A DNA stretch of 64,000 bases from Flavobacteriaceae bacterium (GTDB lineage Bacteria > Bacteroidota > Bacteroidia > Flavobacteriales > Flavobacteriaceae). The notes beneath the pieces are model-generated. The model worked only from the letters and a program-made list of their open reading frames with translations. It did not search any database and had not been told where the DNA came from. The position numbers were made by a program, and so were the translations under genes. Shown here one piece after another: positions 19,591 to 51,900 of the stretch; the first letter of the stretch is position 1, and each line of letters starts with the position of its first letter. The stretch lies in contig JAQWSC010000004.1 of assembly GCA_029243385.1 (NCBI GenBank), positions 1 to 64,000 of the forward strand. The letters are read 5' to 3'.

Positions 19591-19615
19591 AATTCATTGG
19601 TGAAATTGATACTTT

Positions 19616-21937: not shown

Positions 21938-21945
21938 CAAATTTA
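21938..21945 (-). promoter_or_regulatory. Candidate Bacteroidota -7 element upstream of the beta-helix gene
   Basis: The minus strand reads TAAATTTG, matching the TAnnTTTG consensus of the major Bacteroidota sigma factor, about 52 bp upstream of the ATG. I find no good TTTG at the -33 spacing, so this is only a candidate. It lies in the 202-bp gap that would separate the sulfatase genes from the xylose-catabolic half of the strand. Confidence 0.3.
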
Positions 21946-22088
21946 AAACAGAAATAATTGCATCATTGAAAGATATGAGCAAAAACCTGCTACATTTGAA
22001 GAAAGTACATCAGAAAGGGTGTCAAAGTAAACCCTTGACTGAAATTTAAAAAGTCTTTTGTTATCTGAATAGACAATCTTACTATCTA

Positions 22089-23540: not shown

Positions 23541-23553
23541 AATTTTGATATGT

Positions 23554-25209: not shown

Positions 25210-25218
25210 TTTTATTAA

Positions 25219-28805: not shown

Positions 28806-29094
28806 TAAAAAAACGCTCGTTTTAAAATTTATTGATTGAGTCAATTGTATCTAATCAAAAAGGAATTACTGATTCTTAAAAAAAAATGATAGAATTTTAA
28901 TTATATTTAATGGTAAATTTGATAGAGTAAAAGTATTTATTGTTGCTATCGAAAAATATGACAAATGAGGATTATTCTATGAAATTTGAAGCAATGAAGC
29001 ACAATATTGTTTGATCATTATCAAAGATTATTTTTAAAGACTGATATTTGCCCCAGTACCTTTTTGTTTATATTTTGAATTAAAAAGACTCCAA
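28806..29094. promoter_or_regulatory. Divergent promoter region between GH30 and the HTCS regulator
   Basis: 289 bp of very AT-rich DNA between two diverging transcripts. It contains a perfect inverted repeat TTTGAT-CATT-ATCAAA (29010-29025), about 70 bp before the regulator start, and a TAAATTTG at 28914-28921 that matches the TAnnTTTG promoter consensus toward the regulator. No reading frame of note is present. Confidence 0.45.
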
Positions 29095-32000: not shown

Positions 32001-33240
32001 GCTAGAGAAGATTATTTTCAACTTGCTATCGAATGCTTTTAAAGCTACTAAAGACAATGGAGCCGTTACCCTAAAAATTCACAAGTCCATCCAGCCCGTT
32101 GATTTCCCTCTCATAACTAACAATGCAAGTAAAGAGGCCATAACTATTAGTGTTTCTGATAGTGGAATCGGTATCGAAGAGGAAAATCTAAATAAAATAT
32201 TTTCGCGGTTCTATCAAGTAAACGAACTAGACAAGCAATACTATGGTGGTACTGGAATTGGTCTGGAAGTTGTAAAAAACTTTGTTGATCTTCACAAAGG
32301 AATTATTGAGGTAAGCAGTCAAAAAAACATTGGAACCGAATTTAAAATTCACCTTCCAACAGGAAATGAGCATTTCAATAAGGTTGTTCATGAGAAAAAG
32401 TTTGAAATACACAATTCACAATTTGATCAAATAAATACCAAAGCAACTGAAAAAGAACTTACTACCATTGAAAAGAAAGCGAAAAAAACAATTCTTATTG
32501 TTGAAGACAATCAGGAGCTTCGAAATTACATAAAAAATGAACTCAAAGAGAGTTATATTATAAAAACAGCAGAAAACGGAATCGAAGGACTCAAAAAAGC
32601 ATTAAAATTTGTGCCAGATCTAATCATAACCGACATAATGATGCCCTTGATGGATGGCTTTGAGTTTTGTGAAAAAGTTAAAAATGACCTTAAAATTAGT
32701 CATATTCCTTTGTTAATGATGACAGCCAAAGGAATGCAAATCGATAAAATTAAGGGCATTGATTCTGGAGCGGATGCATACCTTACAAAACCCTTTAACA
32801 TGGGGGTTTTAAAATCGCATGTAAAACAACTTATCACAAGTCGACAAATTCTTTTTAATAAATACTTTAACGGTATAAAAAACAATCAGCTCGACAACAC
32901 AACTACCCTAGACAAGCAATTTATAACCACTGTTTTAGATTATATTAACGATCATATTAGCGACTCCAACTTAAGTGTTGAAAATTTAGCGGAGGAATTA
33001 TTCCTTAGCCGCAGCAAACTATATCGTAAAATAAAGGCTTTAACGGGCGATACTGCTACTGAATTTATTCGCAAGATTAAATTAGAAAAAGCCAAAATTC
33101 TTATTGAAACTTCTGATTTCACAGTCAGTGAAATATGCTATAAGGTTGGATTTTCTTCACCTTCTTATTTCACAAAGTGTTTTAAAAACCACTTTGGAAT
33201 ACTCCCCAAAGATCTAAGAAACACGATCGAAGACAACTAA
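29095..33240 (+). CDS. Hybrid two-component system regulator (HTCS)
   Basis: A 1381-aa one-protein signalling system. Order: signal peptide (about 1-23); two periplasmic beta-propellers with repeated LWIGT/IWLGT blades (about 30-700); a Y_Y_Y domain (about 710-795); one membrane helix (about 802-824); a histidine kinase with HEFRTPLTLIL (phospho-His near 860) and ATPase motifs SGIGIEEEN and GGTGIGLEVVKN; a receiver domain with phospho-Asp near 1179 in ITDIMMP; and an AraC-type DNA-binding domain (about 1275-1375). HTCS proteins sense oligosaccharides in the periplasm and activate their PUL. It is the only regulator in the locus and converges on the acetylesterase gene with 11 bp between stops. 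Confidence 0.97.
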   Translation: MGIKKIFGYCLISILIINSAYAQESYDEINFVPLSENISTRAITSLQKDHKGILWIGTQGDGLSSFNGYEYKNYKHQWNEENTLNSSVVNTLFFDSDNNLWVGTEKGLNFYNRNLDQFIDIPLDSLNTKIQVKAIEEIDENSLLVGTHGYGAFKINKASLVGSQVDSIDYQNISGLQINSIKTTLRGSIIVGSNIGLLEYNSLSNEIVRAKFTTLKGSEFIQNAIQSMLIKSDGSIWLGTINDGIIEISTTPTNYYEFTLHRITDKRVLSLESNEKGAIFCATENDGLFIINHKKEVVKSFKFNKSDTKGVKSNSIWSVLIDESNRIWIGYFNQGIDIYDKEMDKFKSLQSIPNKDQSLFSKSVNSISQDRQGRFWFGITDGGVDVYDPKQETFVHLLNPTNKIARGLTSSDVVTVFVDSKENTWVGTWNSGLFVLKKGSKRFENIQVKNSGGILKSNRIMSFAEDSKGTIWIGSFLSGLYSYDPKTANITHHQEETLTQLYINSKNIRKVLVDHYDNIWLGTRSGLFKLNYTNTASPTVESFNELMTDNFGNGIQFNVITTVFEDNQKNIWVGTDGYGLCKINPSKNEITWFNSKDNFIQQSVVSITQTQKNNIWFAGNNGITKLDVEKNVFTNFNTQDGLLSKSFNKNAIYLTKENWLFFGCFKGVHYFDPEAIKMNSKTPIVYFSDFKLSNKSIKPQAKNSPLQKTISETSKIKLKHDQSLFTIDFFGLSYTRSKNIEYAYYLEGFESDWNYVGRTRNATYTNIPPGTYNFKVKASNSEGLWSNSPTVLEIEVLAPWWKTNLAAFIFLLILTLIMYGIYKFFNIRLKERNQIKREREERKQIEGLNAKKIQFFTNISHEFRTPLTLILNPLEDIIAGKSDSLSEDVKEKHKIIYKNSKRLSRLIDELMDFRKLQFNKMEVNVSKFDLISFTSEVASHFEEEAMQRNIILTVENNTDDIKIWADPSMLEKIIFNLLSNAFKATKDNGAVTLKIHKSIQPVDFPLITNNASKEAITISVSDSGIGIEEENLNKIFSRFYQVNELDKQYYGGTGIGLEVVKNFVDLHKGIIEVSSQKNIGTEFKIHLPTGNEHFNKVVHEKKFEIHNSQFDQINTKATEKELTTIEKKAKKTILIVEDNQELRNYIKNELKESYIIKTAENGIEGLKKALKFVPDLIITDIMMPLMDGFEFCEKVKNDLKISHIPLLMMTAKGMQIDKIKGIDSGADAYLTKPFNMGVLKSHVKQLITSRQILFNKYFNGIKNNQLDNTTTLDKQFITTVLDYINDHISDSNLSVENLAEELFLSRSKLYRKIKALTGDTATEFIRKIKLEKAKILIETSDFTVSEICYKVGFSSPSYFTKCFKNHFGILPKDLRNTIEDN

Positions 33241-33251: not shown

Positions 33252-34145
33252 TTATTTAGAGTACGTCTTTACAAATTCTTTAGAAAATAAGACGCCTATT
33301 TTTTTCATTCCTTCATAATTGTAATGCCCAGCTGGTCTGCCTTTCCACATGTAGTCGTATTGTGGGAGAAAGTTAAAAGCATCTTCACTATAACTTTGCG
33401 CAATAAAGGATACTCTAGGAAGGTTTTTGGATACTGACCTCATCGCATCAGCGACTTTGCCTCTTGAAACTTGCAACATAAGAAAAGGCAAGTCATTTGT
33501 TTTATAATGTTTTCGTGTATGCTGGATGAGGTTTGTAAGATTTTGTTCGTAAGAATTGCTAGGAAGTTTTCGCCCACTATCCGATTCTCCCTGAACCCAT
33601 AGCATCCCAGCCAATTCATAACTTTTTGGATCAAACTCTGCAAGAATAGCATCTGTAAACTCAAGCATTTCAAAAAAAAGCTTGGGTTTGTTTTGTTCAT
33701 TCACATGAGTAGCTTTATCAATAGACCAGTTAGGATTCCAACAACCATAAAGTGAAGTTCCACCCCGAGAACGCTTGATAAACAAAAACTTTTTATCAGG
33801 GAATTGTTTACTCATTTCAATACCAAAGAATAGCTCAGGACCAAAAATAGAATCTACTCGAAATTTTTTTCGAATAAAATCTTGTTTAATTTGAGTAACA
33901 TGCAAAGGTGCTGGTTGAGAACCATTGTATGCAAAAAGAATATTCTCTTTTGCTTTAGACAATCCTATAACATCGTCGTTGGTAAGCTTGCTAGCATCGC
34001 CTCTACCGTCCATATTGGACTGGCCTGCTAAAATAAATACTTGTATTTTTTCAGAAGATTCGAATTGAGAATAAATATTTCCATTAATAGAAATACAAAA
34101 AAGAAAGGCAATAAAGCAATATGCAGAATTCGTGTTAGTTACCAT
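33252..34145 (-). CDS. CE6-type (sialate O-acetylesterase-like) acetylesterase
   Basis: A 297-aa secreted SGNH-like esterase with a signal peptide (about 1-26). The nucleophile is Ser43 in ILAGQSNMDGRG, the conserved LWVQGESDSG block follows near residue 190, and the probable base His274 is in GRPAGHYNYEG. This matches the SASA/DUF303 domain of carbohydrate esterase family 6, whose known members deacetylate xylan. The start overlaps the upstream sulfatase by 11 bp, so it is translationally coupled. Deacetylation of an acetylated xylan is the likely role. Confidence 0.85.
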   Translation of the reverse strand: MVTNTNSAYCFIAFLFCISINGNIYSQFESSEKIQVFILAGQSNMDGRGDASKLTNDDVIGLSKAKENILFAYNGSQPAPLHVTQIKQDFIRKKFRVDSIFGPELFFGIEMSKQFPDKKFLFIKRSRGGTSLYGCWNPNWSIDKATHVNEQNKPKLFFEMLEFTDAILAEFDPKSYELAGMLWVQGESDSGRKLPSNSYEQNLTNLIQHTRKHYKTNDLPFLMLQVSRGKVADAMRSVSKNLPRVSFIAQSYSEDAFNFLPQYDYMWKGRPAGHYNYEGMKKIGVLFSKEFVKTYSK

Positions 34146-35727
34146 TTGTTCTCTCGTTATATACTCGTTTAATAACTACATCAGTCATAGCCCTCATTTC
34201 ATCCAAACTCATATCGTCTTTGTATTTTTTTTGAAGTTGGTTAATTTTATACTGAAGGCTTTGCACAATTTCTTTGTAAGCAGCGTTTGCATACAAATTA
34301 TTCATTTCATTAGGATCGTTTTCCAAATCAAACAACTCCCACTGATCCATATCGTAGTAGAAGTGAATCAATTTGTATTTTCCCGTACTAACCCCATAAT
34401 GGGGCTGAACTTTGTGCCAAAATGGATACTCGTAGTAATGGTAATAAACGGCATCTCTTGAATCATATCTTTTGCCTATCAAAGCTTTTTTAAAGCTCTC
34501 CCCTTGCATATCCTCTGGGATAGGTATTCCGGCCATATCAAGTAATGTAGGGGCAAAGTCAATATTCAAAAGCAAGTCGTCATTATGAACTCCCGCCTTG
34601 ATTTTAGAAGGATATTGAATCGTAAACGGCATCCGAAAAGAAGGCTCATACATCCAGCGTTTATCAAACCACCCATGTTCTCCCAAATAAAACCCCTGAT
34701 CGGAGGTGTAAATTACAATAGTGTTTTTATCCAAACCGTTTTGCTCCAAAAAATCCAACATTTGTCCTACAGCCTCATCTACTCCAGCCACACAACGCAA
34801 ATAATCTTTAATATAACGTTGGTATTTCCAGTATTTGAGAGCAGCTCCTTGCAGAGTGTCATCTGGAGTCCAAAATTCACCTTGGTTTCCTATCTTGTTG
34901 TACTTATGAATTTGCCAAGGTTTTAAATCTTTTGGAGGAGGAACCTTTAAATCTTTGCGATTCATATGATTCTCGATTTCTAGCATATTTTGTGAGGCTG
35001 CTAATCTGCCCGAATAATCATCATTAAACGTTTCGTGAAGCGGAAGATCTTCTGCAAACAACCCATCAAATTTAGGGTTGGGAGTCCAAGGTCTGTGAGG
35101 AGCTTTGAACTGATACATCAACATAAATGGTTTGGAGGTATCGCGATCATTGGCAAGCCATTTTAGAGCGTCATGAGCTACTTGTGCAGTAGAATGTCGC
35201 AATTTTTCGACTATGGTATCTTTTCCGTTTTCAACAAAAACAGGATCAAAATATGTTCCTTGACCGCCGTGATTAACCATTACTTTGGAATAATCAAAGC
35301 CCGTAGGTGCTGTACCCAAATGCCATTTTCCTATAACTGCCGTTTGATAACCTGCCTCCTGAAACAACTTAGGAAATGTTTGTTGGCTACCATCAAAATC
35401 TCCTCCTTTTTCATTTTTAAAAAACCCATTTACATGGCTGTATTTACCTGTCAAAATTGCAGCCCTACTGGGTCCGCAAATACTGTTGGTATTGTAAGTA
35501 GCGTGCATCAGCATACCCTGGTTTGCAATTCTGTCAATATTGGGAGTGGGTGCAACTTTAGAGAGCCAATCTTTGTATGCACTTACTGCACTCACAGCAT
35601 GATCATCTGACATAATAAAAACAATATTGGGACGTTCATTTTTTGAAACGTCTTGAGCAAATAGCACATGATTGTACAATAAAGTAATCATCAAAAAGAA
35701 AAGCAATGCACTTGATTTTATTTTCAT
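34135..35727 (-). CDS. S1 sulfatase, CGPSR type
   Basis: A 530-aa sulfatase with a signal peptide (about 1-24). NIVFIMSDDHAVSAVSAY gives the first Asp pair, CGPSR (Cys84) is the formylglycine site in SICGPSRAAILTGKYSHVNG, and GKWHLG and YTSDQGFYLGEHGWFDKRWM are further signatures. The C-terminal KYKLIHFYYDMDQWELFDLE is typical of sulfatases of the N-acetylglucosamine-6-sulfatase/DUF4976 type. It overlaps its neighbours by 4 and 11 bp and belongs to the GH3-sulfatase-esterase run. Confidence 0.92.
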   Translation of the reverse strand: MKIKSSALLFFLMITLLYNHVLFAQDVSKNERPNIVFIMSDDHAVSAVSAYKDWLSKVAPTPNIDRIANQGMLMHATYNTNSICGPSRAAILTGKYSHVNGFFKNEKGGDFDGSQQTFPKLFQEAGYQTAVIGKWHLGTAPTGFDYSKVMVNHGGQGTYFDPVFVENGKDTIVEKLRHSTAQVAHDALKWLANDRDTSKPFMLMYQFKAPHRPWTPNPKFDGLFAEDLPLHETFNDDYSGRLAASQNMLEIENHMNRKDLKVPPPKDLKPWQIHKYNKIGNQGEFWTPDDTLQGAALKYWKYQRYIKDYLRCVAGVDEAVGQMLDFLEQNGLDKNTIVIYTSDQGFYLGEHGWFDKRWMYEPSFRMPFTIQYPSKIKAGVHNDDLLLNIDFAPTLLDMAGIPIPEDMQGESFKKALIGKRYDSRDAVYYHYYEYPFWHKVQPHYGVSTGKYKLIHFYYDMDQWELFDLENDPNEMNNLYANAAYKEIVQSLQYKINQLQKKYKDDMSLDEMRAMTDVVIKRVYNERTNGN

Positions 35728-37136
35728 AATTGTATGGTTTTGGACAGAGATGCTATTGATAAAATCCTCTTGCTAAGACTGTCTATTAATTGTGAGTATT
35801 CACTGTTTTGGGATAAATTTATTGTTTCTCCTGGGTCGTTTTGATGATCGTAAAGCATTCGACCTGTTGTTTTTCCAGTTTGATTTTTCCATTCAGAATA
35901 GGAATAGCGTTCAGTAATCAAAGTCTCTCCACGCTTATACCTTGAAAAAGCATATTTTTTATGAATAGTTGATGGATTTTTTAATGCATTCATTAAAGAA
36001 ATACCTTGAAGATGAGAAGGTTTGGGAATTTCTAACACATCACATAAAGTAGGAAAGATATCTACCAGTTCAGCAAATGAATTGGTACGCTTACCTCCCA
36101 TGGCTTCTGGAATATTAATTAGAAGAGGGATTTGTAATTCAATCTCAAACAAGGAATGCTTGGACCATCGATTGTGTTCCGACAAACTAAATCCATGATC
36201 ACTCATCAGTATCACTACGGTATCATCACGCAGCCCAAGTTTTTCAAGAGTTGCAATAACTTCACCTACCTGTTGATCGATGTATGAAACACAGGCAGCA
36301 TATCCGTGTATAAGCTTTCTTTTCATATCCAATGAAGGCGACTTTCCTTTCTGAATTCCATCGTAAAAAGGAAGTTCGTACCATTTTGAAGCTACTTCAG
36401 GCGCCGAAACTGGAAATGTATCATTGGATGGGAAAGGAACTGTGGAAGGATCGTATAAATCCCAATACTTTTTGGGTGCATTGAAAGGAAGGTGTGGTTT
36501 TCTGAATCCCGCAACAATAAAAAACGGATTCGATAATTGGTTTTGTACTTCAATGTCTCGAATTGTTTTTTGAGCTGTTTTACCGTCAAAATAAATAGTA
36601 TCATTAACTATTGGAGACTCAAATGCAGGAACGGGCATTGAGTTTTTATCGTTTTGTTTGTTTTTGGGATCTGCATAATCTCTAAATGAAGTGACCATTT
36701 CAGGATTCCAAACCTCATCCCAATCCAATTCCCTATCGGCAGAATGGTGAGATACTTTTCCATTACTGATTGTTTTGTAACCGTACTGCTTTAGCAGCTG
36801 AGGAATCGTAACAACAGCATCTGGAACGTCCTTATCAATCCGAGAGTTGAAACTCAAAAATCGATTTTGTGTAGGGCGAATTCCCGTCAAAATACTAGCT
36901 CGAGAGGCTCCACAAACTGGCACGTTACAGTATGCCCGATTGAACTGAACAGATTTTTTGGCCAGCGCATCAATATGAGGAGTTTGAATCCACGAATTCC
37001 CATAGCTTGAGAGCATCGGTCGTAAATCATCTATCAAAAAAATGATTACATTTTTTGGAGAATTGGAGGTTTGTGCTAAGACCGAAGAAATTGTCAAACA
37101 AAAAAATAAAAACAGAAATAAAGGTTTTATTTTCAT
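35724..37136 (-). CDS. S1 sulfatase, iduronate-2-sulfatase-like, CxASR type (second)
   Basis: A 470-aa sulfatase with a signal peptide (about 1-21). NVIIFLIDDLRPMLSSYGNS, CGASR (Cys75), GIRPTQNRF and LMSDHGFSLSEHNRWSKHS are the same set as in the 22.1-kb sulfatase, so the locus carries two members of this iduronate-2-sulfatase-like group (probably S1_7) besides the fusion protein. It overlaps GH3 by 1 bp and the next sulfatase by 4 bp. Confidence 0.92.
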   Translation of the reverse strand: MKIKPLFLFLFFCLTISSVLAQTSNSPKNVIIFLIDDLRPMLSSYGNSWIQTPHIDALAKKSVQFNRAYCNVPVCGASRASILTGIRPTQNRFLSFNSRIDKDVPDAVVTIPQLLKQYGYKTISNGKVSHHSADRELDWDEVWNPEMVTSFRDYADPKNKQNDKNSMPVPAFESPIVNDTIYFDGKTAQKTIRDIEVQNQLSNPFFIVAGFRKPHLPFNAPKKYWDLYDPSTVPFPSNDTFPVSAPEVASKWYELPFYDGIQKGKSPSLDMKRKLIHGYAACVSYIDQQVGEVIATLEKLGLRDDTVVILMSDHGFSLSEHNRWSKHSLFEIELQIPLLINIPEAMGGKRTNSFAELVDIFPTLCDVLEIPKPSHLQGISLMNALKNPSTIHKKYAFSRYKRGETLITERYSYSEWKNQTGKTTGRMLYDHQNDPGETINLSQNSEYSQLIDSLSKRILSIASLSKTIQL

Positions 37137-39457
37137 CAGAAATTAATTTGATTAACAACCTCCATCGAAACTTTTTTAAGGTCTTTATCTGCAGAAGAAT
37201 TTCCAACCATAATATCAAACATCCCAGATTCTACAACATAGTTCATTTCGATATCGTAAAATGCTAACATTTCAGGAGTAATGTCAAACTCCAGTTTTTG
37301 AGAAGCGCCAGGATTTAAAGAAACTCGCTGGTATCCTTTAAGCTCTTTGACAGGTCTTGTTACAGAACTTACTCGGTCTCGAATATACAATTGGACTATT
37401 TCCTCTCCTTTATACGATCCTGTATTACTTACAACTGTTGAAAGTGTAATGGTTTCAGAATCGTTTATTTTGGAAGAGCTGAGTGTAGGCTCACTAATTT
37501 CAAACTGAGTATAACTTAAACCAAATCCAAAAGGATATAACGGCATATTTTTTTCAAATGCATATTTGTGAAAGTAGTGCGAGGGTTTGTGATTATAAAT
37601 CATTTGCAACTGCCCTACTGAGCGTGCCACAGTGAGAGGAAGCTTTCCACTAGGATTCACATCGCCAAAAAGCACCTCTGCAACCGCTTGACCTCCAAAA
37701 CTTCCTGGCTCCCATGCCTCTACAATGGCAGGAATATTATTCTGTAACCAAGGTTCTGAAATAGGACGACCATTAACCAAAACTACGACTACAGGTGTGC
37801 CAGCTTGGTAAACAGCCTTTACTAAGTCTAATTGCTTTCCTGGAAGTCGCAAATCGGCTCGCGCCATATTTTCACCTGCTGTTTTTTGGCTCCATTTATA
37901 ACGCAATGAATTTTCTCCCACAACCAAAATTACCAAATCAGCTTCCTTTGATAGTTTTGCGGCTTCATCGATTCGGGTTTTCTTAATTCTTCTTAGATTT
38001 TGCCCTGAGTCAAAATACGAAACTTCAAAGCCCAAAGGTTCCGCTAAGTTTTTTATACCTTCATAAACAGTTGTTATATTTTCTTCGGGTTGTGGCATGT
38101 GCCAATCTCCGAGAATTGTAGAATTGTTGGAATTGGGACCTGTCACTAAAATCTTTTTAGGCATACTTTTTGAAAGAGGAAGAATTCCATTGTTTTTGAG
38201 AAGTGTAATGGACTTTTGTGCTACTTCAAGGGCCAATTCGGTGTGTTGTGGAGTAAATACTTTTGAATCAATTTCATCCAAATCTACCATTGAATTTTCA
38301 AAAAGTCCTAGATTAAATTTAGCCGTTAATATTTTTTCACATGCTGTATTTACTCGATCCATAGATAGTCTTCCCTCCTTAACCAATTCAACAACATTTT
38401 CCAAGAAATGAGGGCCGTGCATATGCATATCCATTCCTGCATCGACAGATAAAAAAGTGGCTTCTTTAAAATTCTCAGCAGTGTGATGAAGCTTTTCAAT
38501 ACGCTCAATATCCATCCAATCGCTTACATAAAACCCATCAAAATTCCATTGATTTCTCAATATATCAGTCATCAATCCTTTATGCATATGACATGGAATG
38601 CCATTGAGTTCATTATGAGCTGCCATGATTGAAAAAACGCCTGCTTCGATAGCGCGTTTATAGGGCGGTAAATGAACCTCAAAAAGGGTTCGTTCAGAAA
38701 CATCCATAGGCGACGCATTCAATCCATTAATAGGCTCGCCTCCTGCTATCAAATGCTTGGCACAAGCAATGACACTTTCATAGCCTGTAAAATCGTTTTG
38801 TTGGAATCCTCGAATCATTTCTACGCCCATATTACCCACCAAAAAAGGATCTTCACCAAATGTCTCTCCGACTCTACCCCATCGAGGATCGCGAAGCACA
38901 TCGATATTGGGCGTAAATGACCAATGCGAACCCGTAGCTCTCATTTCTATAGCTGTTTGACGAGCAATGTCATAGGCATATTTATCCGTAAAAGTAGCCG
39001 CCATATTGATTGGCGTTGGATATACAGTAGTTCCTTTAACCATCGCGTTGCCGTGAATTGCATCAATACCTATAAGCAAGGGAATTTTTAAACGCGACTT
39101 TTGCACCAAAGACTGTAAATAATTTGCCTCTTCAGCTGTCAAAACATGCAAAAACGAACCGATTTTTCCATCCACAACCATTTGGGCAACATCACTGCTG
39201 TGTAAATTTTTATAAAATCCTAGCGCGTCATTTCCTAAAAGTTCTTCAGGACTCAATTCTTTTTCTGCCTTTTTCATGTGGTCCAAACCAACATATTGAC
39301 ACATTTGGGCTACTTTTTCTTCCAAAGTCATGCGATCCATTAAATCTTTAACTCGATCTTGAGTGGCAGCTTGGGGATTTAAATACAATGGAGTATTTGT
39401 AATTGTATGCGATGAAAGTAAAAAGAGAGTGATTAGTTGAATAATTGTTTGATACAT
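37136..39457 (-). CDS. Secreted GH3 beta-xylosidase / beta-glucosidase
   Basis: A 773-aa retaining glycoside hydrolase of family 3 with an N-terminal export signal (about 1-20). The barrel domain contains the conserved RDPRWGRVGETFGEDP and KHLIAGGEP segments and the nucleophile Asp313 in GFYVSDWMD. The second alpha/beta domain (LVILVVGENSLRYKWSQKTA) and the C-terminal fibronectin-like domain (EEIVQLYIRD to FDIMVGNSS) are complete. In this locus it probably releases xylose from non-reducing ends; glucosidase activity cannot be excluded. It starts the run of coupled genes GH3-sulfatase-sulfatase-esterase. Confidence 0.92.
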   Translation of the reverse strand: MYQTIIQLITLFLLSSHTITNTPLYLNPQAATQDRVKDLMDRMTLEEKVAQMCQYVGLDHMKKAEKELSPEELLGNDALGFYKNLHSSDVAQMVVDGKIGSFLHVLTAEEANYLQSLVQKSRLKIPLLIGIDAIHGNAMVKGTTVYPTPINMAATFTDKYAYDIARQTAIEMRATGSHWSFTPNIDVLRDPRWGRVGETFGEDPFLVGNMGVEMIRGFQQNDFTGYESVIACAKHLIAGGEPINGLNASPMDVSERTLFEVHLPPYKRAIEAGVFSIMAAHNELNGIPCHMHKGLMTDILRNQWNFDGFYVSDWMDIERIEKLHHTAENFKEATFLSVDAGMDMHMHGPHFLENVVELVKEGRLSMDRVNTACEKILTAKFNLGLFENSMVDLDEIDSKVFTPQHTELALEVAQKSITLLKNNGILPLSKSMPKKILVTGPNSNNSTILGDWHMPQPEENITTVYEGIKNLAEPLGFEVSYFDSGQNLRRIKKTRIDEAAKLSKEADLVILVVGENSLRYKWSQKTAGENMARADLRLPGKQLDLVKAVYQAGTPVVVVLVNGRPISEPWLQNNIPAIVEAWEPGSFGGQAVAEVLFGDVNPSGKLPLTVARSVGQLQMIYNHKPSHYFHKYAFEKNMPLYPFGFGLSYTQFEISEPTLSSSKINDSETITLSTVVSNTGSYKGEEIVQLYIRDRVSSVTRPVKELKGYQRVSLNPGASQKLEFDITPEMLAFYDIEMNYVVESGMFDIMVGNSSADKDLKKVSMEVVNQINF

Positions 39458-39552: not shown

Positions 39553-42189
39553 TTACTCATATAATTGCAGTGGTTCAAATGGATTTGTTAAGGTGTTTTT
39601 CAGACCATAATATGCGGGTTTCGGATTGTATTGCTTGTCATAAATAAATCTTTTACTGTCATGATGCTTTCCAAACCCATCTACAAGACCCCAAGTATTG
39701 AAGGTAACAACTCCTGTTTTTGTTTTGGATAAAAGTACCTTTAGGATATTTGAGTAAGCATTTGATTGTTCAATTAAACTTTGACTTTCATTGAATGAAT
39801 TGAAAATTTTATAATCAATTTCTGTAACGTGAAAATCCAAGTCGTTTTGATGGGCCCAATCAATCAAATCAGAAAAATACTGTAACGATTCTTTATCGAG
39901 AGCCAACTTTTGATTGCTTTTCAAGTGCGCTTGCCATCCAAGGCCGTCTATTCTGTACCCTTTTTCTTTTAAATACAAGATGGTTCTTTTTACACGATCC
40001 CACATTTTAGGCTCCATACCCCCATGTTGATTAAAAACTAAGCTTACATCGGGTGCATGTTTATTCGCAATTTCAAACGCTTTTGTAATATAAAGGGGGA
40101 AACCCGCTTCATCGTGACCTAACTGTTCCCAAGGGTTTTCCCATTTGGTATTTCCAGGTTTCTCTTTAAACCACTCACCTTCAGGAGTAACAGTTTCATT
40201 GACAACATCCATCCATTTGACAGCCGAATGACCGTTTATTTTTTTACAAAGTGCCGTAAAGTATTCCACCATATTGGTGTTTAATTCATCGTGCGTACGA
40301 TGATCTTCTTTGGCCCATCGAGAAACTTGAGGGCTAATGGGACCATGAATTCGGAGCGTAACGTTGTTTTTTATTGCAAAATCTAAGTAATCTTCCAATT
40401 GACTCCAATCCCAAACGTTGGGTTTTGGGTGAATGCGGGACTGCTTGGCACAATTTTCAGGAGTAGAATAAGAAAAATCTTTTAAAAACATTTTTTCGAT
40501 TTCGGTACCTAAATGACGATGGTTGAGCGTTGCTCCGATATATACTTTCTGAGAATCATAGCCTTTTTCAGTCAGTATTTCTTTAATTGGTTTTTGAATC
40601 TTAACTGGATCTGAACGCTTTGGAGTTTCTGGAAATGATTGAGAATTAAAAAAATCAAAAGCATTGTTTTTTAGGTTTTTTATTGGGTTCAAGTATCGGC
40701 TGTTATTCATCAAATTAACAGTTTCTAAAGGGTCTAATTTGTAATCATAAAATTCCTCCGCTATGATATCCGATTCCTTAACAGCATGTGTGCTTTTGAC
40801 TCCATCTTTTAACCAAACCGTATATCGATGTTGTGTACTTCGAAAGCTATAACCCATTGTTTTTCCACGATTGTATTGACTGACGGCAACCTCTTTGACA
40901 GAGTGTAGTGTACGATTCATAAGTGGCACCAAGCTAGTTCCATCGAGTTGTTTAGGTTCTTCTACACCTGCCAACTCACACAAGGTTGGAAAAATATCTA
41001 CAAACTCAGTTGGAGAAACAACCTGTGTTGACTTTTTAGAATTCGGTGTATATATGATTAACGGAGAACGCGTAGCTTGTTCAAAATTAGAGTGTTTGGC
41101 CCAAAGACTGTGGTCACCCAAATGCCAGCCGTGATCACCCCAAACAACAATGATTGTATTTTCGTAAAGACCTGTTTGTTTTAATGTATTGATGATTTTT
41201 CCTATTTGAAAATCAATAAAACTGACACACGCATAGTAGCCGTGAATCAATTCTCTTTGAAAATTTTCATCAAGGTTTAATAATCTTTCGGAAGTAATAG
41301 GATACGATCTTCCGGGTTCTAAGTAGCTTTGCAATTCACCGGCACTGTGATAAGCTATATCGACTTTATTGGCTGATTTTTTTTGAAAAGGTGCCAAAGA
41401 AAATTTATCGCGTTGGTATAAATTCCAATATTTTTGTGGTGCAGAAAATGGCAAGTGTGGTTTTTTAAAACCAACCGCCAAAAAAAAGGGAGTTTCTTGA
41501 TTTTTACTCAACATTTCCAATTGAGAAACGGCATACTTTGCTATTGCACCGTCAGTGTATGCGTTATCGGGAACATCACTAGAACTTACCGGTGGCTTGT
41601 ATTGTGAAGTAATAAATTTATGAAGGTTTTTTTTGTCTTTACCGCTGGCACGCTTTCTAATTTCTGCAACTTGAGCCTTGATCTTTGGGTCTTGATAATT
41701 TCCCAAAGCGGGAAAACCATGATCAGGGTGATATTCCAGTGCTCTTGATTTGGCAAAAGGCTGACTCCAAGAAATTTCATCCAAACCAGAGTCCACGCCT
41801 CTGGGATCAAATATTTTACCTACACCGATTGTAGTATAGCCCTTTTGCTTGAAATGCTGAGGGATTGTTAAAATATTCGGATTTTGATCTCTCATTTTGG
41901 TTTTTAAATCCCAAACCTTGGTATAGTCTGGACGTTTGCCAGTAAGTAAGCTTATACGAGAAGGGCTACAAATGGCTTGTTGAGTATGTGCGTTGAGAAA
42001 AACAGTCGCGTTTCTTGACAGGAAGTTTAAATTAGGAGTTACTGCAACTTTATCACCATAACTTCCAATGGTTGGCTTAAGATCATCCACAGCAATAAAT
42101 ACAATATTGGGCTGTTGCTGCGCCTCAAGAAAGGAACATATGATTAGTAAAAACCATTTTGAAATTTTAAATAAAGATTTGAAACGCAT
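39553..42189 (-). CDS. Sulfatase-GH10 xylanase fusion protein
   Basis: An 878-aa two-domain enzyme. Signal peptide (about 1-23), an S1 sulfatase (about 27-515) with VDDLKP, formylglycine site CSPSR (Cys74) and WGDHGWHLGDHSLWAKHS, then a GH10 barrel (about 545-868) with acid/base Glu665 in WMDVVNE and nucleophile Glu790 in FHVTEIDY. The reading frame is continuous. The GH10 half lacks the usual ENSLKW and WHSQ motifs, which are replaced by KQSRIHP and RIHGPISPQ. Fusion of both activities means that sulfate removal and chain cleavage act on the same glycan. It lies 13 bp downstream of the GH5 gene. Confidence 0.93.
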   Translation of the reverse strand: MRFKSLFKISKWFLLIICSFLEAQQQPNIVFIAVDDLKPTIGSYGDKVAVTPNLNFLSRNATVFLNAHTQQAICSPSRISLLTGKRPDYTKVWDLKTKMRDQNPNILTIPQHFKQKGYTTIGVGKIFDPRGVDSGLDEISWSQPFAKSRALEYHPDHGFPALGNYQDPKIKAQVAEIRKRASGKDKKNLHKFITSQYKPPVSSSDVPDNAYTDGAIAKYAVSQLEMLSKNQETPFFLAVGFKKPHLPFSAPQKYWNLYQRDKFSLAPFQKKSANKVDIAYHSAGELQSYLEPGRSYPITSERLLNLDENFQRELIHGYYACVSFIDFQIGKIINTLKQTGLYENTIIVVWGDHGWHLGDHSLWAKHSNFEQATRSPLIIYTPNSKKSTQVVSPTEFVDIFPTLCELAGVEEPKQLDGTSLVPLMNRTLHSVKEVAVSQYNRGKTMGYSFRSTQHRYTVWLKDGVKSTHAVKESDIIAEEFYDYKLDPLETVNLMNNSRYLNPIKNLKNNAFDFFNSQSFPETPKRSDPVKIQKPIKEILTEKGYDSQKVYIGATLNHRHLGTEIEKMFLKDFSYSTPENCAKQSRIHPKPNVWDWSQLEDYLDFAIKNNVTLRIHGPISPQVSRWAKEDHRTHDELNTNMVEYFTALCKKINGHSAVKWMDVVNETVTPEGEWFKEKPGNTKWENPWEQLGHDEAGFPLYITKAFEIANKHAPDVSLVFNQHGGMEPKMWDRVKRTILYLKEKGYRIDGLGWQAHLKSNQKLALDKESLQYFSDLIDWAHQNDLDFHVTEIDYKIFNSFNESQSLIEQSNAYSNILKVLLSKTKTGVVTFNTWGLVDGFGKHHDSKRFIYDKQYNPKPAYYGLKNTLTNPFEPLQLYE

Positions 42190-42202: not shown

Positions 42203-44257
42203 TTAATTTTTAATGATTATTTTTTGAAAGAAAATCTGATGATTGGTCAATAAAATTTCCGTCATATACACTCCGTTCGATAGCTGTGAAACATCTACTT
42301 TTTGGATCGGATTTTTTTGAAAGAACACCAGCTCTCCATTGAGTGAAAATAAGGAAATTTTCTGCACTTTGTTATTTACAATAAAAAGAAAATGATTGGT
42401 TGGGTTTGGAAACAATCGAATTGCGGCGTTGTCCTTTTGAGTCGTTGATAGAGCAGGTGACAGTTGCACCTGAAAATCATCAAAAATATAAGTTCCCTTA
42501 TCTTTTCCACAAAGCACTTGTATTTCTAAAGAGGTGGTTGATGGAGGAATAGTATATGAAAAACTAAAAGGAGTATCTGGATAGGATGTGGATAGATCAA
42601 ATTCGTTAGAGGATATAAAATTACCTAAACCTCCCCCATTTCTTTTTATTCTCAACTTAAAAGATTGTCCCAATGCGTTTAAATCTCCCGAAAGTGCTTT
42701 AGCAAAAATTGTGATTGTTGCCGTTTTGCCTTCAAATTCGGAATTAGTAATGGCGTAAGGCCTGTTTTTTAATACCACTTCGTTAAAATTATTTCCTGGG
42801 GAGTCTACAATAATTTTTGCCGATCCATGATCTGTTCTAGAATGGCATCCCCCGTATCGTTTTCTAGCCACTGCACTGCCTTCGGTATATAACGTCCAGT
42901 CATTATCAATTCCACACTCGAAATCGGCATTTGTAATCCATGAAGAGTTGGTACAATTGGATGTTTTAAGCAATCCCAAAACAGCGTCTTTTACATCATC
43001 AACCCAAATACACTCATCAATTACTGTGCTTGGCACATTTTGAGAAGTATCAGTATAGCTATTTAAGATAAAATAGTCTGAATCGTAGGAGATGTTATTG
43101 GGATCGTCGTTTCTTAAATGAAGTGTTTTGGAAGATTCATTACCCGAGTCCCACACTGAAAAAGCAAAACCATTTGCAATAGCTAGATCTGAAATAAATC
43201 GATGAAAATCAATTCTTGAGTTGTTATCAGGACCTCCATCTGCATAGCCCGTGCTATTTGAATTAATTTCTCTTAAATCTCCCGTTTCATAGGAGTATCC
43301 AAGAGAATTATCCGCACCAAATTCTCCTAAATAAATAGCTGCCGGAGGAGAAAATTCATTGGCCCAATCCAATACGGTTTGAAATTCATTGGTAACTGTG
43401 TTTTTATCTGCGACCGAACCCCATTCAAAATCAGTATAACCTTCTGAGCTAGATTTGGTAAATGAAAACGGGCGATAATAATGAAAAGTAGCTATTAAAT
43501 AGAAATCGTTTTGAAAGATACTTTCAGCTATAGTTGTAGGCGATAGATATGAATTTTGAGATCCTCCTGTAACAATAATTTTACGCTTATTATTATTTTC
43601 GCCACTCATACGAACAATAGAAATAACCTCTTGATTGATTTGATTCATTTCTGTATCGGAAACTTCAAAATAAGGTTCATTAAGAATCTCAAAAATTAAA
43701 TCATCTGAATGATTTTTAAATCGATCCGCAATTTGAGACCAAATAGAATAAAATTTATCTAAATCAGCCAATCGCTTTGCGGAGTTGGGGTGTGTATATT
43801 GACTTTTTTGGTCATCGAAAGTGTATAGAAATTCGTTTTTAAGATCCGATCCATGAAAATCAAGTACCACAATCAGGCTTTGATTCAATGCCCAATCAAT
43901 AACCGTTTGAACACGATCTAAGTAAGCGGTGCTTACGTTATAATCTGATGACGAACCTGAATACTCTGAACCATCGTCTAAAGGAGAATAAGCATCGGTT
44001 TTTTCTGGAGTGCGTTCTCCAAAAAAATCCATCCCAATACGAACGTTGGTAAAACCCGCACTAGCGACGTCCATAAAATATTTTTCTGTAGCAGCAGAAG
44101 ACCAGTTTCCCTCCACAGGAGCCTGAAGAACATTTCCTAAATTGATACCTCTTCCCATAGCATTTACCATTTCTTGGGGAGTGGATTGACCAAAAAAATA
44201 GCCTGATATAAAAATACACATCAGGCAATTTCTAAATTTCACCATTTTTCGAAGCAA
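42203..44257 (-). CDS. T9SS-secreted GH5 glycoside hydrolase with CBM-like module
   Basis: A 684-aa enzyme with a signal peptide (to about residue 24; Met5 is an alternative start). The clan-A barrel begins GRGINLGNVLQAP; acid/base is Glu194 in FEILNEPYFE, ATFHYYRPF carries the conserved His-Tyr, and the nucleophile is Glu312 in IYLGEFGADN. A jelly-roll CBM4/22-like module (about 445-600) and a T9SS C-terminal domain (about 612-684, LFPNPTNHFLFIV) follow. GH5 covers endoglucanases, mannanases and xylanases; from context an endo-acting xylanase or arabinoxylanase is likely. It follows the small exported protein by 3 bp. Confidence 0.92.
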   Translation of the reverse strand: MLRKMVKFRNCLMCIFISGYFFGQSTPQEMVNAMGRGINLGNVLQAPVEGNWSSAATEKYFMDVASAGFTNVRIGMDFFGERTPEKTDAYSPLDDGSEYSGSSSDYNVSTAYLDRVQTVIDWALNQSLIVVLDFHGSDLKNEFLYTFDDQKSQYTHPNSAKRLADLDKFYSIWSQIADRFKNHSDDLIFEILNEPYFEVSDTEMNQINQEVISIVRMSGENNNKRKIIVTGGSQNSYLSPTTIAESIFQNDFYLIATFHYYRPFSFTKSSSEGYTDFEWGSVADKNTVTNEFQTVLDWANEFSPPAAIYLGEFGADNSLGYSYETGDLREINSNSTGYADGGPDNNSRIDFHRFISDLAIANGFAFSVWDSGNESSKTLHLRNDDPNNISYDSDYFILNSYTDTSQNVPSTVIDECIWVDDVKDAVLGLLKTSNCTNSSWITNADFECGIDNDWTLYTEGSAVARKRYGGCHSRTDHGSAKIIVDSPGNNFNEVVLKNRPYAITNSEFEGKTATITIFAKALSGDLNALGQSFKLRIKRNGGGLGNFISSNEFDLSTSYPDTPFSFSYTIPPSTTSLEIQVLCGKDKGTYIFDDFQVQLSPALSTTQKDNAAIRLFPNPTNHFLFIVNNKVQKISLFSLNGELVFFQKNPIQKVDVSQLSNGVYMTEILLTNHQIFFQKIIIKN

Positions 44258-45828: not shown

Positions 45829-47457
45829 TTATTGTTCTTCGGCAGTAAAGGCAGTGGAAACCTCAACTTTGATTTCATCAACCATAAAATTGGCTCCCCC
45901 AGTAGCAGTTCCTGTTTTCACTACCCTCCAATTCACATACATATTGGTAGTTCCTGTAGGAACATCAAAAGATTTTGATGGAACGCTATTGAGTGTACTG
46001 TCTCCGTTGAGTCCGCCCCATAGTGAAGCCGAAGACCAATCGGTATCATCAGGAGCCATCAGCGTACTCCAATTAGTTTCGGTAAAAATTCCTGACTCTA
46101 AATCAGAAGTACTTGTTCCTGTATGGACATATCTTTCGTACCAGCCCAATCGGTTGTTTCCATATCCAAAAGCTTCATTAAAGGATACACGAAGTTTCTT
46201 CCAGTCTGAATCTACAGCAAGAGCAAGTACTAATGCAGATTCAATGGCTTTTGTTGTTTCACCACCAGCTTGAGTAACTCTTGCAACTCTTACATTTTTG
46301 GCAGATATGAAGGCTACCAAATGATTTTGAACAGAACCATTAAGTCTGTAAGTGGATAAACTAGAATCAAAAATATTTGGATCAACAGCATCGGCAGCCA
46401 AGTCAAAATTTTGATAATAAACAGGAGTAGTCTCCCAACGTTCTTCTACTTTCAGAGTAAGAATATCGTTAAAATCGTATGTATTACCCGATGCATTGGT
46501 AGCTTTGGCTCCCATCAAATAGGTGCCTACTGGTAAATTTGCATCTGCAAGTATGGTAATTTTCCCTTCGTTGTCAATCGAGAATGAACTTGAGTAGGCA
46601 GTAAGTGCATCAGGCAGAAGCGCATCCCAAGAAGCTGCAGTCATACCCACCAAATTTGGCGATTTAGAAGTATATGCTGTATTTGGAGAAAGCGTTACCT
46701 GCTGTAAAGAAGTTGTTCCATCTTGCTGAAGCAACTCAATTGTTGGAGGTGCTCCAACTGTGACTGTTAAAACATTATTGAAAGTTATGACTCCCAAATT
46801 GGTTGTAACAACTACCGAAATTTTGTTTTCACCTGACAAGGCTCCATTCACTTTACTAATAACCCCTGTTGACTCATCTACAGAAAACCCACTGGGAGTA
46901 TCGGATGATAAAGCATAAGAAACCGAACTTATCAATCCCTCAGAAGTATCTGTGTAAGATAGTGTTGCCATTGCTCCTTGCTCAAAAATCCCAGCAGATT
47001 TGGCTGCGTTATCTATTTGAAGGGTAATAGGAACTTCTTCGATATTATAGGTTAGCAAATCGGTGTGAAGGGCTACCCCATTGGAGTTAGCAATTCTAAC
47101 AGATATTACATAGTCGCCTGGAGATAAATTTTGATTTTTATTATCATAAGTAATTACACCTGTCTTGGGGTCTATAGACCACATTCCAGCAACAGCTGTG
47201 CTAGCTGTAGGCACTTCAATTTCAGGTTGTAAAAACTGATACGAGCCAACCACTTCAAAGGTTGGAGCATCACTAGAAATTTTATCCTTTACAGGATAGC
47301 TCGTTACGTCTTGATAAACGATAGATCCGTCATTATCAACCAATACAGGCTGTTCATATTTTGAATAGTCAAGATCGATGCGTTCTTCGCATGCTCCAAA
47401 TGCAAATAAAATAGCAATGAGCACTGCAATTTTGTTAATGTATGTTGATTTTATCAT
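45829..47457 (-). CDS. Surface glycan-binding lipoprotein (SusE/F position)
   Basis: A 542-aa lipoprotein (lipid Cys in LFAFGACEE). The mature part has three consecutive Ig/cadherin-like domains (about 25-340), each with a GxWSIDP/GFSVDESTGVIS-type strand, and a C-terminal jelly-roll domain (about 345-535, ending NFMVDEIKVEVS). The gene overlaps the susD stop by 1 bp (TAATG). By position and layout it is the surface glycan-binding protein of this PUL, although it is not a plain SusE or SusF homologue. The C-terminal domain is the likely glycan binder. Confidence 0.82.
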   Translation of the reverse strand: MIKSTYINKIAVLIAILFAFGACEERIDLDYSKYEQPVLVDNDGSIVYQDVTSYPVKDKISSDAPTFEVVGSYQFLQPEIEVPTASTAVAGMWSIDPKTGVITYDNKNQNLSPGDYVISVRIANSNGVALHTDLLTYNIEEVPITLQIDNAAKSAGIFEQGAMATLSYTDTSEGLISSVSYALSSDTPSGFSVDESTGVISKVNGALSGENKISVVVTTNLGVITFNNVLTVTVGAPPTIELLQQDGTTSLQQVTLSPNTAYTSKSPNLVGMTAASWDALLPDALTAYSSSFSIDNEGKITILADANLPVGTYLMGAKATNASGNTYDFNDILTLKVEERWETTPVYYQNFDLAADAVDPNIFDSSLSTYRLNGSVQNHLVAFISAKNVRVARVTQAGGETTKAIESALVLALAVDSDWKKLRVSFNEAFGYGNNRLGWYERYVHTGTSTSDLESGIFTETNWSTLMAPDDTDWSSASLWGGLNGDSTLNSVPSKSFDVPTGTTNMYVNWRVVKTGTATGGANFMVDEIKVEVSTAFTAEEQ

Positions 47458-48983
47458 TAGTTGGCGATTTCTTCGTTATAATTAATTTCAGAAGCTGGTA
47501 TGGGTAATTTCATAACAATAGCTTCGCTTGTTTCGTGTGTAACATCAATAGCAGCTTTAAAACTAGCTGATGTATTGTGAGGTATAATAACATTGTTAAG
47601 AAAATAGTCATAGCCTCTTCGTCTGTTGTTGAACCAGTCGTGACCTTCCATTAACAACTCAAATTGATATTCTTTCATGATTGCATTTCGAAAAGCAGCT
47701 TGATCACCGCCTGTGTAAGCAGCCAAAGGTGTTGTGATTCCAACTCGGTTTAACACTTCTTGAACGTATCCTAAAGCCTCTCCGTTTTGAAGTTCGTTGG
47801 AAATTTCAGCCAACATAATGAGCAAATCTGCGTATCGGTAAATGATTACATTTTGATTTCCTTCTCGAATCATATTGGCTGGATCCTTTGAACCTAATTT
47901 ATAGAGGTATGGAAATCCGTTCCAGTTTGTTCTATTCGTAACATTGGGATACGAATTGTAGGTTTTACCATTATGTTGTTGCGTATAATTTGTTAAAAAA
48001 GTGGCCGCAATTCTTTCATCCCCTGGATAAGTGGCGTTATGCAAATCATATACATCCGCATTGATTCTAATATTTCCAAAGGTATTGGCTTTCGTATAAT
48101 TAGATGCCGTAAATGAACGTACATGATCAGTAGAAGCTCCTATAGCAACTTGTAATTCAAATATAGATTCTGAATTCGCATCATTGGAATCTTCGTTAAA
48201 CAAATCGCTATAATTTGTCAAAAGTTGGTATTTTCCATAAACGTTGATAGCATGATCGTAAGCCAATTGCCAATAGTTTAACGATGAATCTTGAAGAGAT
48301 GTATCTGCTGTGGCTAGCGTCATATATACTTTGGCCAATAACATGTCAGCTGCATATTTTGCCGGATACCCTTTAATAGGTGTTTCACTCATCAAAAGCG
48401 ACGCTTGATTTGCATCTTTGATGATTTGATCATAAATCTCTTTTTCGGCTGCTTTTTGTTGATAAATAGCCGAACTTGCGGTGGGTTCGATTCGAAGAGG
48501 AACTTGACCCCACAAACGAACTAAATTAAAGTAGTTGTAAGCTCTTAAAAAATAGGCTTCACCAATAATTGAATTAATCCCGATGTCTTCACTAGATGTG
48601 GCTGCCTCAACAGGAGGTGCGTAAGCAATAATATCATTGGATTTGCTAATTGTTGAATACATTTGAATCCATGTGTTTTCAACATAGGTACTCGAATTTG
48701 ATGGTTTTAAGGAAGACAATGTTAAATTATCAAACGAAGTATTTCTGTTGCCTCCTCGTTTCGACCAGCCAAAACCCGAGCCTAAATTTGTAATAAAATA
48801 ATATTGATTTCCCATGTAGCCCCAATCAATCATATTGGAGTAAATTCCATCCAAACTTCTTTTGTAGCTATCCAAAGAAACAAAAGCATCTTCCTTGCTA
48901 AGGTTTGGATTGTCTTCTTCGATAGTACATGCGCCTATGAATGAAACTACGATTGCAAAAATTATAATTTTAAATTTTTTCAT
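47457..48983 (-). CDS. susD: SusD/RagB-family glycan-binding lipoprotein
   Basis: A 508-aa lipoprotein (lipid Cys19 in SFIGACTIE) of the SusD family, with the TPR-like helical scaffold and family blocks NSIIGEAYFLRAYNYFNLVR, YPAKYAADMLLAKVYM and NVIIYRYADLLIMLAE. SusD proteins form the lid on the SusC pore and bind the glycan outside the cell. It lies 11 bp downstream of susC and is coupled to the next lipoprotein gene. Confidence 0.97.
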   Translation of the reverse strand: MKKFKIIIFAIVVSFIGACTIEEDNPNLSKEDAFVSLDSYKRSLDGIYSNMIDWGYMGNQYYFITNLGSGFGWSKRGGNRNTSFDNLTLSSLKPSNSSTYVENTWIQMYSTISKSNDIIAYAPPVEAATSSEDIGINSIIGEAYFLRAYNYFNLVRLWGQVPLRIEPTASSAIYQQKAAEKEIYDQIIKDANQASLLMSETPIKGYPAKYAADMLLAKVYMTLATADTSLQDSSLNYWQLAYDHAINVYGKYQLLTNYSDLFNEDSNDANSESIFELQVAIGASTDHVRSFTASNYTKANTFGNIRINADVYDLHNATYPGDERIAATFLTNYTQQHNGKTYNSYPNVTNRTNWNGFPYLYKLGSKDPANMIREGNQNVIIYRYADLLIMLAEISNELQNGEALGYVQEVLNRVGITTPLAAYTGGDQAAFRNAIMKEYQFELLMEGHDWFNNRRRGYDYFLNNVIIPHNTSASFKAAIDVTHETSEAIVMKLPIPASEINYNEEIAN

Positions 48984-48994
48984 GTTCAGTGATT

Positions 48995-51900
48995 TTAAAA
49001 GTTGATATTGACACCTAATAGATAGCTACGGACATTGGGGAGTCCATTCCAATCAACACCAATAATATTTCCATTATTTAAAAAATTAGTTACCTCAGGA
49101 TTGTAACCGCTATAATCAGTTAAAGTAAAGAGATTAATTCCTGAAACATAAATGTTGCACGACTCAAATACGCCCTCAACATCGACATCGTATCCCAAGG
49201 TAAGATTGCTTAATCGCAAATAGCTTCCATCCTCAATGATTCGGTCATCAATACTTGTAGCCTGATTTATTTTATTGTATCCAATTCTAGGATAGGTTTC
49301 TGAGGGTGCTTCTGGTCTCCACGCATTGTGGTATGCAGCTGCATACACATTTCTTCCTGTACCTTCGGCATACCCCAATCGCAATAAATTTCCATTAGCA
49401 ATTTCGTTTCCGTACGAACCGTTCAATAATGCGCTCAAACTAAATCGTTTGTATCTCATATTAAGATTCATACCAAAAATAAAGTCAGGATTAGGGTTTC
49501 CAATGATAGTTCGGTCGTTATTATCAATAACACCGTCTCCCGTATCGGGCACACCGTCTCCGTCAGAATCTACCGTGAGTTGGTCAACAATTCTTACGTC
49601 TCCAGCCTGAAAATTTGAAACAGAAATATCGTCTCCCTCTTGATAAATTCCATCAGTTTCCCATCCGTAAAACAATCCTATTTCTTCTCCTTTTACAAAA
49701 ATATTAGCCGGAGATCTGAAGTAGGTTCCCGAAGAAACATTTTGACCCAAATAATATGATTTCTGAGTCATTTTACCATCCATTATAATATCTGCATCAG
49801 GAATTCCAAGGCTTAAAATTTCACTTTTATTAAATGAAATATTTCCACCAAAGTCCAAACTAAAATCTTTTGTATTTACTACTGTGCTTGACAATGAAAC
49901 CTCCAATCCTTTATTACCAACACTTCCTCTATTTATTAATAATGTAGCGTATCCTGTTGACCCTGGAAGGTTTAACGCCTGTAGCAAGTCATTTGTTTCT
50001 TTCGAATAAGCTTCGATACTTCCAGAAATACGGTTGTTGAACAATCCAAAGTCCAAGCCTATATTGTACTGCTCGGTGGTTTCCCATTTCAAGTCTGGAT
50101 TTGCAATATTGTCTCGGGCAAATGACACAATATTTTCATTGGAAGTGTTACTGTATAAATATGCACCATAATTTTCGGCCGTTTGATAAGCTCGAATTGC
50201 CTGATTTCCTATTTGACCCCAACCTGCACGTAATTTGAGTTCATTAACAGCATCTATAGAACTGAAAAAGTCTTCTTTTGATAAACGCCATGCTAATGAT
50301 AATGATGGGAAAAAACTGTATTTGTTGTCCCCTGTAAATTTAGAGGACCCATCTGCTCGAAAACTTCCTGTAAAAATATACTTATTATTAAAAGTATAAT
50401 TAACTCGTCCCAAATAAGAAAGTAATTGTGTTTTAAACAAAATGGTTTTGTTGGGCGTTCTGACGTCTTGAGCATATTGAGGTTGATCTCCACCATATTG
50501 TAGAGTAGAAAAATTCCCAAGTTCATACAATTCGTTTTCAGAATTTCTAACATCATAAGTAATTCCCAATACGGCATTTACTCGGTGTTTTCTATTATAA
50601 TTTCTGTTGTATTGTAACAAATTATTAATTTGGTACGACTGAGATGTTAAATCCGATACAGCAAGAATACCATTGGCTGAACTTCCTTGATACGTAGTGA
50701 TTCCATAAAACCTTCTTCTTTCTTTATTTCTGATGTTTCCACCTGCTTGTACTTTATACTTTAACCCTTTGACAGGCAAATCGTATGTAAGAGAAACATT
50801 GGCAAAATAGCGTGTTTCTCTAGAATTATCCTCAAAGTCATTAATCCATGAAAGTGGATTCGACAAACCTAAATCGTTATCAAGTCCTTGACCATCGTTT
50901 CCGACCAAAGGTCTGAATCCGATAACGTTCGAAATAAAACTTCGCGATCCACTGGTTCTGTCTCCATCCTGAGCAAACATTCCTTTAGATACAAATCCAC
51001 TAATTCTTGCTTGCAATTTGAGTTTTGAAGACAATTGTTGGTTAAGGTTTATGCGAATATCGCCACTTCGAAATTGGGAATTGTCAACAACTCCTCCTTG
51101 ATTATTCGCCCCCATTGAAACAAAGTAATTTCCGTTCTCAGAACCTCCACTAAAAGAAGCACCAACACTATTACTAAGTCCCAATTTAAAAATTTCGTCC
51201 TGCCAATTGTATTGAGTCAAGGGAAATGGATTCACTACAGAATTTCCATCCTCGTCTTCTTCAAACTGATAAACCGTGTTGCCTTCTATTTGGTACCTTG
51301 CACCGTTATTGTTGTTTAATTGACGTTCGTTTTCATAACGAGCATAGTCTGCTCCGCTGAGAACTTCGAAGGTTTTACTGACTTGAGATATTGAAGTGTT
51401 AACGTATCCATTAATTTTCATTTTTCCCTCAAAGCCTTTTTTGGTGGTAATAAGGATAACACCGTTTGCTCCTCTTGAACCATAAATAGCAGTGGCAGAA
51501 GCATCTTTCAGTACTTCTATTTTATCGATATCTCGAGGGTTAATTCCGTTCAGACCGTTCTGACTTTCTTGAATAGAATTTCCATCCGATTCTGCAAGTG
51601 CTGCATCTTCTCCTGCGGACGAAATAATTACTCCATCAACAACATACAAAGGTTCATTGTTCCCTCGCAAACTACTTGCTCCACGAATACGTATACTTAC
51701 TCCAGATCCTGGTGTACCATTTTGAATGACTTGAACTCCAGCCGCTCGACCTTGTAAGAGTTGATCAACCGTTGTGGATTGTCGAGCAATATTTTCCTCG
51801 ACTTTGACGGATGAAATAGCACCTGTTAGGTCGCTTTTTCGTTGTGTCCCATAACCAACAACTACTACCTCATCAAGTTCTGACACGTCCGGCTGAAGGG

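Follow-up and report, generated by a model that had tools for sequence, protein, structure and literature searches.

A single gene in the 64,000-nucleotide stretch of DNA from a marine Flavobacteriaceae bacterium analysed here (the window) encodes an 878-residue protein (39553..42189, minus strand, as are all features below unless stated otherwise) in which an N-terminal S1 sulfatase is fused to a C-terminal GH10 domain. We read this protein as probably a bifunctional enzyme that belongs to a Flavobacteriaceae xylan PUL, is exported by Sec and likely works in the periplasm, where it would desulfate and cut sulfated xylo-oligosaccharides whose xylose is then consumed. The fusion is not new: it is already known from such PULs and is conserved among them.

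Architecture of the fused protein

The ORF list shows that the frame starts with ATG and contains no internal stop, in agreement with the earlier note, made from the sequence alone, which had described one unbroken frame from a signal peptide to GH10. The signal peptide (approximately residues 1–23, 42121..42189; MRFKSLFKISKWFLLIICSFLEAQ) was judged from its letters, with the cleavage site placed by eye rather than by a predictor. The Pfam part of the domain search proposed in that note matched both domains in the single chain: Sulfatase (PF00884, residues 27–409, 40963..42111; 2.7e-45, 155.4 bits against a curated cut-off of 25), accompanied by the sulfatase C-terminal subdomain SGSH_C (PF16347, residues 358–509, 40663..41118; 1.7e-12), and Glyco_hydro_10 (PF00331, residues 546–864, 39598..40554; 8.8e-43), which covers model positions 8–309 of 311 with 147.1 bits against a cut-off of 22.1 (150 bits for this half in the genome search). 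An AlphaFold2 model shows two folded domains (mean pLDDT 80.1), with low confidence in a few loops and at residues 520–531; the interdomain linker at about this position (40597..40632, pLDDT <50) is variable and gapped in the alignment of fused homologs. The mutual orientation of the domains in this model (pTM 0.57) is not relied on.

Comparison of the model with solved structures places 6HHM first in both Foldseek and VIA-align for residues 25–520 (Z 40.9, 36% identity over 444 residues), and 6HHM is also the closest solved sulfatase in a sequence search (8.4e-88). By this structure and sequence comparison, made without SulfAtlas profiles, the nearest solved structure is a member of subfamily S1_7. 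Residues 545–872 fit GH10 xylanase folds with Z of ~33 (3NIY, Z 33.3). The possibility, raised in the earlier note, that the second half belongs to a non-xylanase family is ruled out by the Pfam, PDB sequence and fold matches. The same note had also considered a sequencing error joining two frames. An assembly or frame artefact that merged two genes has no direct support, although some genomes (e.g. L060) do carry an unfused GH10 relative adjoining an S1 gene; approximately 20 independent records, including cultured Lutibacter strains, contain the fused frame, and the linker position is conserved across fused homologs. Because fused homologs occur in independent records, we regard this explanation as refuted, its probability being close to nil.

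Active sites of the two halves

Direct reading of the sequence found CSPSR and the glutamates at 665 and 790 at the positions given in the earlier note. CSPSR (residues 74–78, 41956..41970) satisfies the formylglycine (FGly) motif C-x-P-S-R, and a protein of the FGE-sulfatase family elsewhere in the genome (292.8 bits, profile search) means that an FGly maturation enzyme is available; profile searching of the genome gave no match to anSME. The GKxxH motif lacks its His, a residue that is common in S1 enzymes without strictly defining them and that matters for catalysis; alignment to IDS and 6HHM places D128 (41806..41808, in GKIFDPR) in the column of this His. GKI[FY]DPR is found in all 20 distinct fused proteins that span this site, whereas most other, unfused sulfatase relatives have His there; Asp also occurs in a few unfused sulfatases (L086–L088; e.g. 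Bacteroidales, Carboxylicivirga). One of these, a 670-residue protein of Carboxylicivirga marina (L088:4935-6947), nests in the fused clade of the sulfatase tree, and its ~170 C-terminal residues match no Pfam family.

As judged from sequence, D128 lowers the certainty of sulfatase activity and leaves fold and ancestry unaffected; with Asp in every fused homolog covering the site, sulfatase activity may be weak or directed at a different substrate. The same His-to-Asp change, set against the His of most unfused relatives, would suit a sulfatase half that has lost catalysis and now serves the GH10 domain by binding sulfated sugars. We consider this improbable, since the alignment of fused homologs shows little or no variation at the FGly Cys and CxPSR, at GDHG, at K125 and at further S1 positions, the Asp is conserved along with the next Pro-Arg in a manner that looks like selection for a function, and the Asp form is found in unfused sulfatases too.

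In the GH10 half, the predicted acid/base Glu (E665, in DVVNE; 40195..40197) and the predicted nucleophile Glu (E790, in HVTEID; 39820..39822), both read from their motifs, are invariant in the fused alignment, and N664, H755 and W833 are likewise retained in fusion-type GH10 domains. The GH10 endo-xylanases 1VBR, 3NIY and 5AY7 resemble the fusion in fold, Glu pair, DVVNE and TE[IL]D, but have VWH and the second Trp of WGxxDxxSW, both of which are missing from the fused clade. These are the usual aromatics of the GH10 cleft, which matter for subsite binding and are not required for membership. Alignments with 5AY7, 1VBR and the window's own GH10 show HGPISPQ (residues 615–621, 40327..40347) in place of the canonical HxxVWHSQ, and this change and the loss of the second Trp are seen in fused and unfused relatives alike. 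The sequence departures bear on specificity, leaving GH10 family membership intact. The fused GH10 scores 147 bits where the canonical GH10 of the PUL reaches 337, and it lacks W-H and the second Trp, so that ordinary 1,4-xylan may not be its substrate; the combination of D128 and the cleft changes means that textbook activity should not be assumed. In those parts of the literature that were consulted, we did not find D128 or the cleft departures described, and D128 may be new. We raise, tentatively, the idea that the fused clade is a distinct type, an Asp-sulfatase with a remodelled GH10 domain, recognising a sulfated xylosyl motif that ordinary S1_7 and GH10 enzymes do not handle.

Gene cluster and distribution of the fusion

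The fused gene is followed in its operon by a GH3 gene (37136..39457), two S1 sulfatase genes (35724..37136 and 34135..35727) and a gene for a SASA-type carbohydrate esterase (33252..34145; PF03629, 1.7e-28), forming a block at 33252-42189 with a GH5-type hydrolase carrying a T9SS tail (42203..44257; PF00150, PF18962) and a SusD and SusC pair (47457..52174) upstream. Between SusD and GH5 (44622-47457) lie a 392-residue protein with a T9SS tail and a weak CBM_4_9 match and a 542-residue protein with a weak cadherin-like match; to judge from these matches, the two may bind glycan at the cell surface. Next to the PUL (53565-58662), small genes separate two proteins of the CotH-kinase family. A hybrid two-component sensor/regulator on the plus strand (29095..33240) separates this half from a second one (11380..28844), annotated, like the first, from Pfam and additionally from NCBIfam. 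The block at 15933-28844 comprises a GH30-like protein, three S1 sulfatases, a beta-helix/CBM protein, a canonical GH10 and a GH43, which brings the sulfatases besides the fusion to five; the second half further includes a GPH symporter, an SSS symporter, a xylose isomerase (13078-14403; NCBIfam 677 bits, above cut-off) and an FGGY kinase nearest to xylulokinase (14407-16002; NCBIfam 300.6 bits, below the cut-off of 380). The beta-helix protein with CBM_4_9 fits PL9-CBM22, a putative likeness drawn from Pfam and NCBIfam matches that include no PL9 profile. This gene content supports a xylose cluster, presumably for an algal glycan, around the fusion.

The same fusion and PUL type were reported in 2019 from ocean bloom bacteria (Krueger et al., PMC6794258), the sulfated-xylan PUL type having been proposed from gene content; a sulfated xylan target was likewise proposed earlier (PMC6794258, PMC6298971), and bloom metaproteomes contained SusC/D proteins from PULs of this kind (PMC6298971). 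By its gene content, the window appears to hold both of the PUL patterns described in PMC6794258, in combined form. The first corresponds to the sulfatase-GH10, GH3 and two sulfatase genes of the operon, and of the second, given as GH30, three sulfatases, PL9 with CBM22, GH10 and GH43_1, the window has the GH30-like protein, three S1 sulfatases, GH10 and GH43, and the beta-helix protein with CBM_4_9 as a candidate for PL9-CBM22. The closest known systems are the sulfatase-domain GH10 proteins of those Flavobacteriia PULs and the sulfated-xylan PUL136 of Formosa sp. Hel3_A1_48 (PMC6298971), with the same domain pair, the same companions (GH3, two sulfatases) and the same kind of bacteria, and with the combination with the second pattern that the window appears to share; they differ in belonging to other genomes, and the consulted portions of the main texts hold no active-site analysis.

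The earlier note had asked how common the fusion is. In a sample of 397 genomes of the family, searched for GH10-type matches at E 1e-30 or better, fusion-type GH10 occurs in 22, eight of them fused by frame length (window included). An added scan of one genome per species yielded further fused records labelled Lutibacter, Formosa, Marixanthomonas and Flavobacteriaceae, along with a Polaribacter record cut by a contig end. Both domains lie in one frame at 21 distinct loci beyond the window, and the 20 fused members that were aligned (the window's and 19 others, 50–61% identical to it) each match both Pfam domains. Most fused loci adjoin GH3 together with S1 sulfatases, one or two in number, that have homology to those of the window, and several adjoin a GH5-type gene and SusCD, the GH5-type gene lying directly beside the fused gene in L047, L048, L049, L067 and L071 also; homologs with the same neighbours come from Lutibacter, Formosa, Polaribacter and other Flavobacteriaceae records. 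Across these sequences, the fusion is conserved and not an accident. In a small class sample of 395 genomes, none of 20 regions with long GH10 frames had a sulfatase that would indicate an independent fusion elsewhere in the class. Two variants were seen: a 1299-residue version of the fusion with one or more CBM_4_9 domains between sulfatase and GH10 (L085:5010-8909), and a 1421-residue frame of Pontiella sulfatireligans (L114:2937-7202) combining GH30_2, S1 sulfatase and CBM_4_9, so that here too a sulfatase and a hydrolase are fused, the latter of GH30 type.

In the sulfatase tree, the fused halves group together (19 rows, 99% SH-aLRT; 95% once a further fused row and an unfused one are included), a pattern compatible with a single fusion origin. 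In the GH10 tree, fused and unfused rows (L109 being unfused) interleave, and in Lutibacter agarilyticus (L074:4995-9863) the fused gene is followed by two tandem unfused GH10 copies akin to its own GH10, so that later duplication or fission is likely; on these trees, duplication, fission or domain exchange is part of the history of the fused and unfused GH10 genes. A simple split-gene ancestry was rejected: the unfused S1 sulfatases beside unfused GH10 genes cluster separately from the sulfatase halves of the fusions, and L052 carries a fused copy in addition to them, as L069 does a partial one; they therefore look like paralogs rather than split parts.

Target glycan and proposed mechanism

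The closest solved sulfatase, 6HHM, is P18_S1_7 of Formosa agariphila, which takes the 2-sulfate off D-xylose in fragments of ulvan (PMC9096561); it is a single-domain protein of an ulvan PUL with the active-site His, whereas the fusion has two domains and D128. Since 6HHM is closest by both sequence and fold, the best reading is that the fusion desulfates and cuts sulfated xylo-oligosaccharides. S1_7 also includes a kappa-carrageenan galactose-4-sulfatase, and the closest subfamily therefore does not fix the sugar; two reviews assign endo and exo action to P18_S1_7 and P32_S1_8 in conflicting ways, and we therefore leave this unclaimed for the fusion.

The Pfam scan gave no Por_Secre_tail match in the fusion, while Pfam and NCBIfam place T9SS tails on the GH5, GH30-like and PL9-like proteins of the PUL; a signal peptide in the absence of such a tail points to periplasmic action on imported oligosaccharides. 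There, the N-terminal sulfatase would remove sulfate from xylose in imported xylo-oligosaccharides, the divergent GH10 domain would cut the backbone beside the desulfated xylose, and the GH3 and GH43 xylosidases, xylose isomerase and kinase would then use up the xylose. A precedent is P36, an S1_25-GH78 protein of the Formosa ulvan pathway (sulfatase module 6HR5), reported to desulfate the non-reducing-end sugar and then remove that sugar (PMC8511951); by analogy with these consecutive steps, the fusion would desulfate xylose and cut beside that xylose. P36 likewise chains a sulfatase to a glycoside hydrolase, but its sulfatase is rhamnose-specific and of another subfamily, and its partner is GH78 instead of GH10. 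The analysis establishes the fusion, the identity of its domains, the catalytic Glu pair, the FGly motif and the conserved gene context; from these we infer the 2-sulfate specificity, the location, the order of the two steps and the identity of the glycan. The earlier note's suggestion that desulfation and cleavage are spatially coupled holds insofar as both domains sit in one chain; sequential action on one molecule goes beyond that observation.

The conserved fusion, the xylose cluster and a xylose-2-sulfate sulfatase as nearest relative together make sulfated xylan the likeliest target, and to this extent the earlier note's interpretation is supported. Its description of the fusion as direct structural evidence of sulfated xylan was too strong, given that the GH10 cleft is divergent and a sulfatase active-site residue altered, and that a fusion says nothing direct about substrate chemistry. 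The fold and domains, 6HHM as nearest structure, the conserved neighbours, the xylose isomerase, FGGY kinase and GPH symporter and the FGE-family protein all favour desulfation and cutting of sulfated xylo-oligosaccharides, against which stand D128, the divergent GH10 cleft, the mixed substrates of S1_7 and a review that describes red algal xylans as apparent homoxylans (PMC6419167). The cleft changes across the clade would also suit a xylose-rich or mixed sulfated glycan other than sulfated 1,4-xylan, e.g. a 1,3/1,4-xylan or a heteropolysaccharide whose side sugars are sulfated. There, GH10 would cleave an atypical xylosyl linkage and the sulfatase would act on an adjacent sugar; the five further S1 sulfatases, esterase and PL9-like protein suggest more than one decoration. 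We hold such a glycan to be unlikely, though worth keeping in mind, as the second, canonical GH10, the GH43 and the xylose catabolism of the cluster fit a xylan backbone.

A literature search, in the sources as far as consulted, found no biochemically characterised sulfatase-GH10 fusion. The sulfatase-GH10 interpretation preferred here is plausible and in substance already published; the fusion is ordinary as a discovery. The wider question is the nature of the "sulfated xylan" of phytoplankton blooms, and the fused enzyme, with its matched sulfatase and GH10, could serve as a useful reagent to find or define this glycan.
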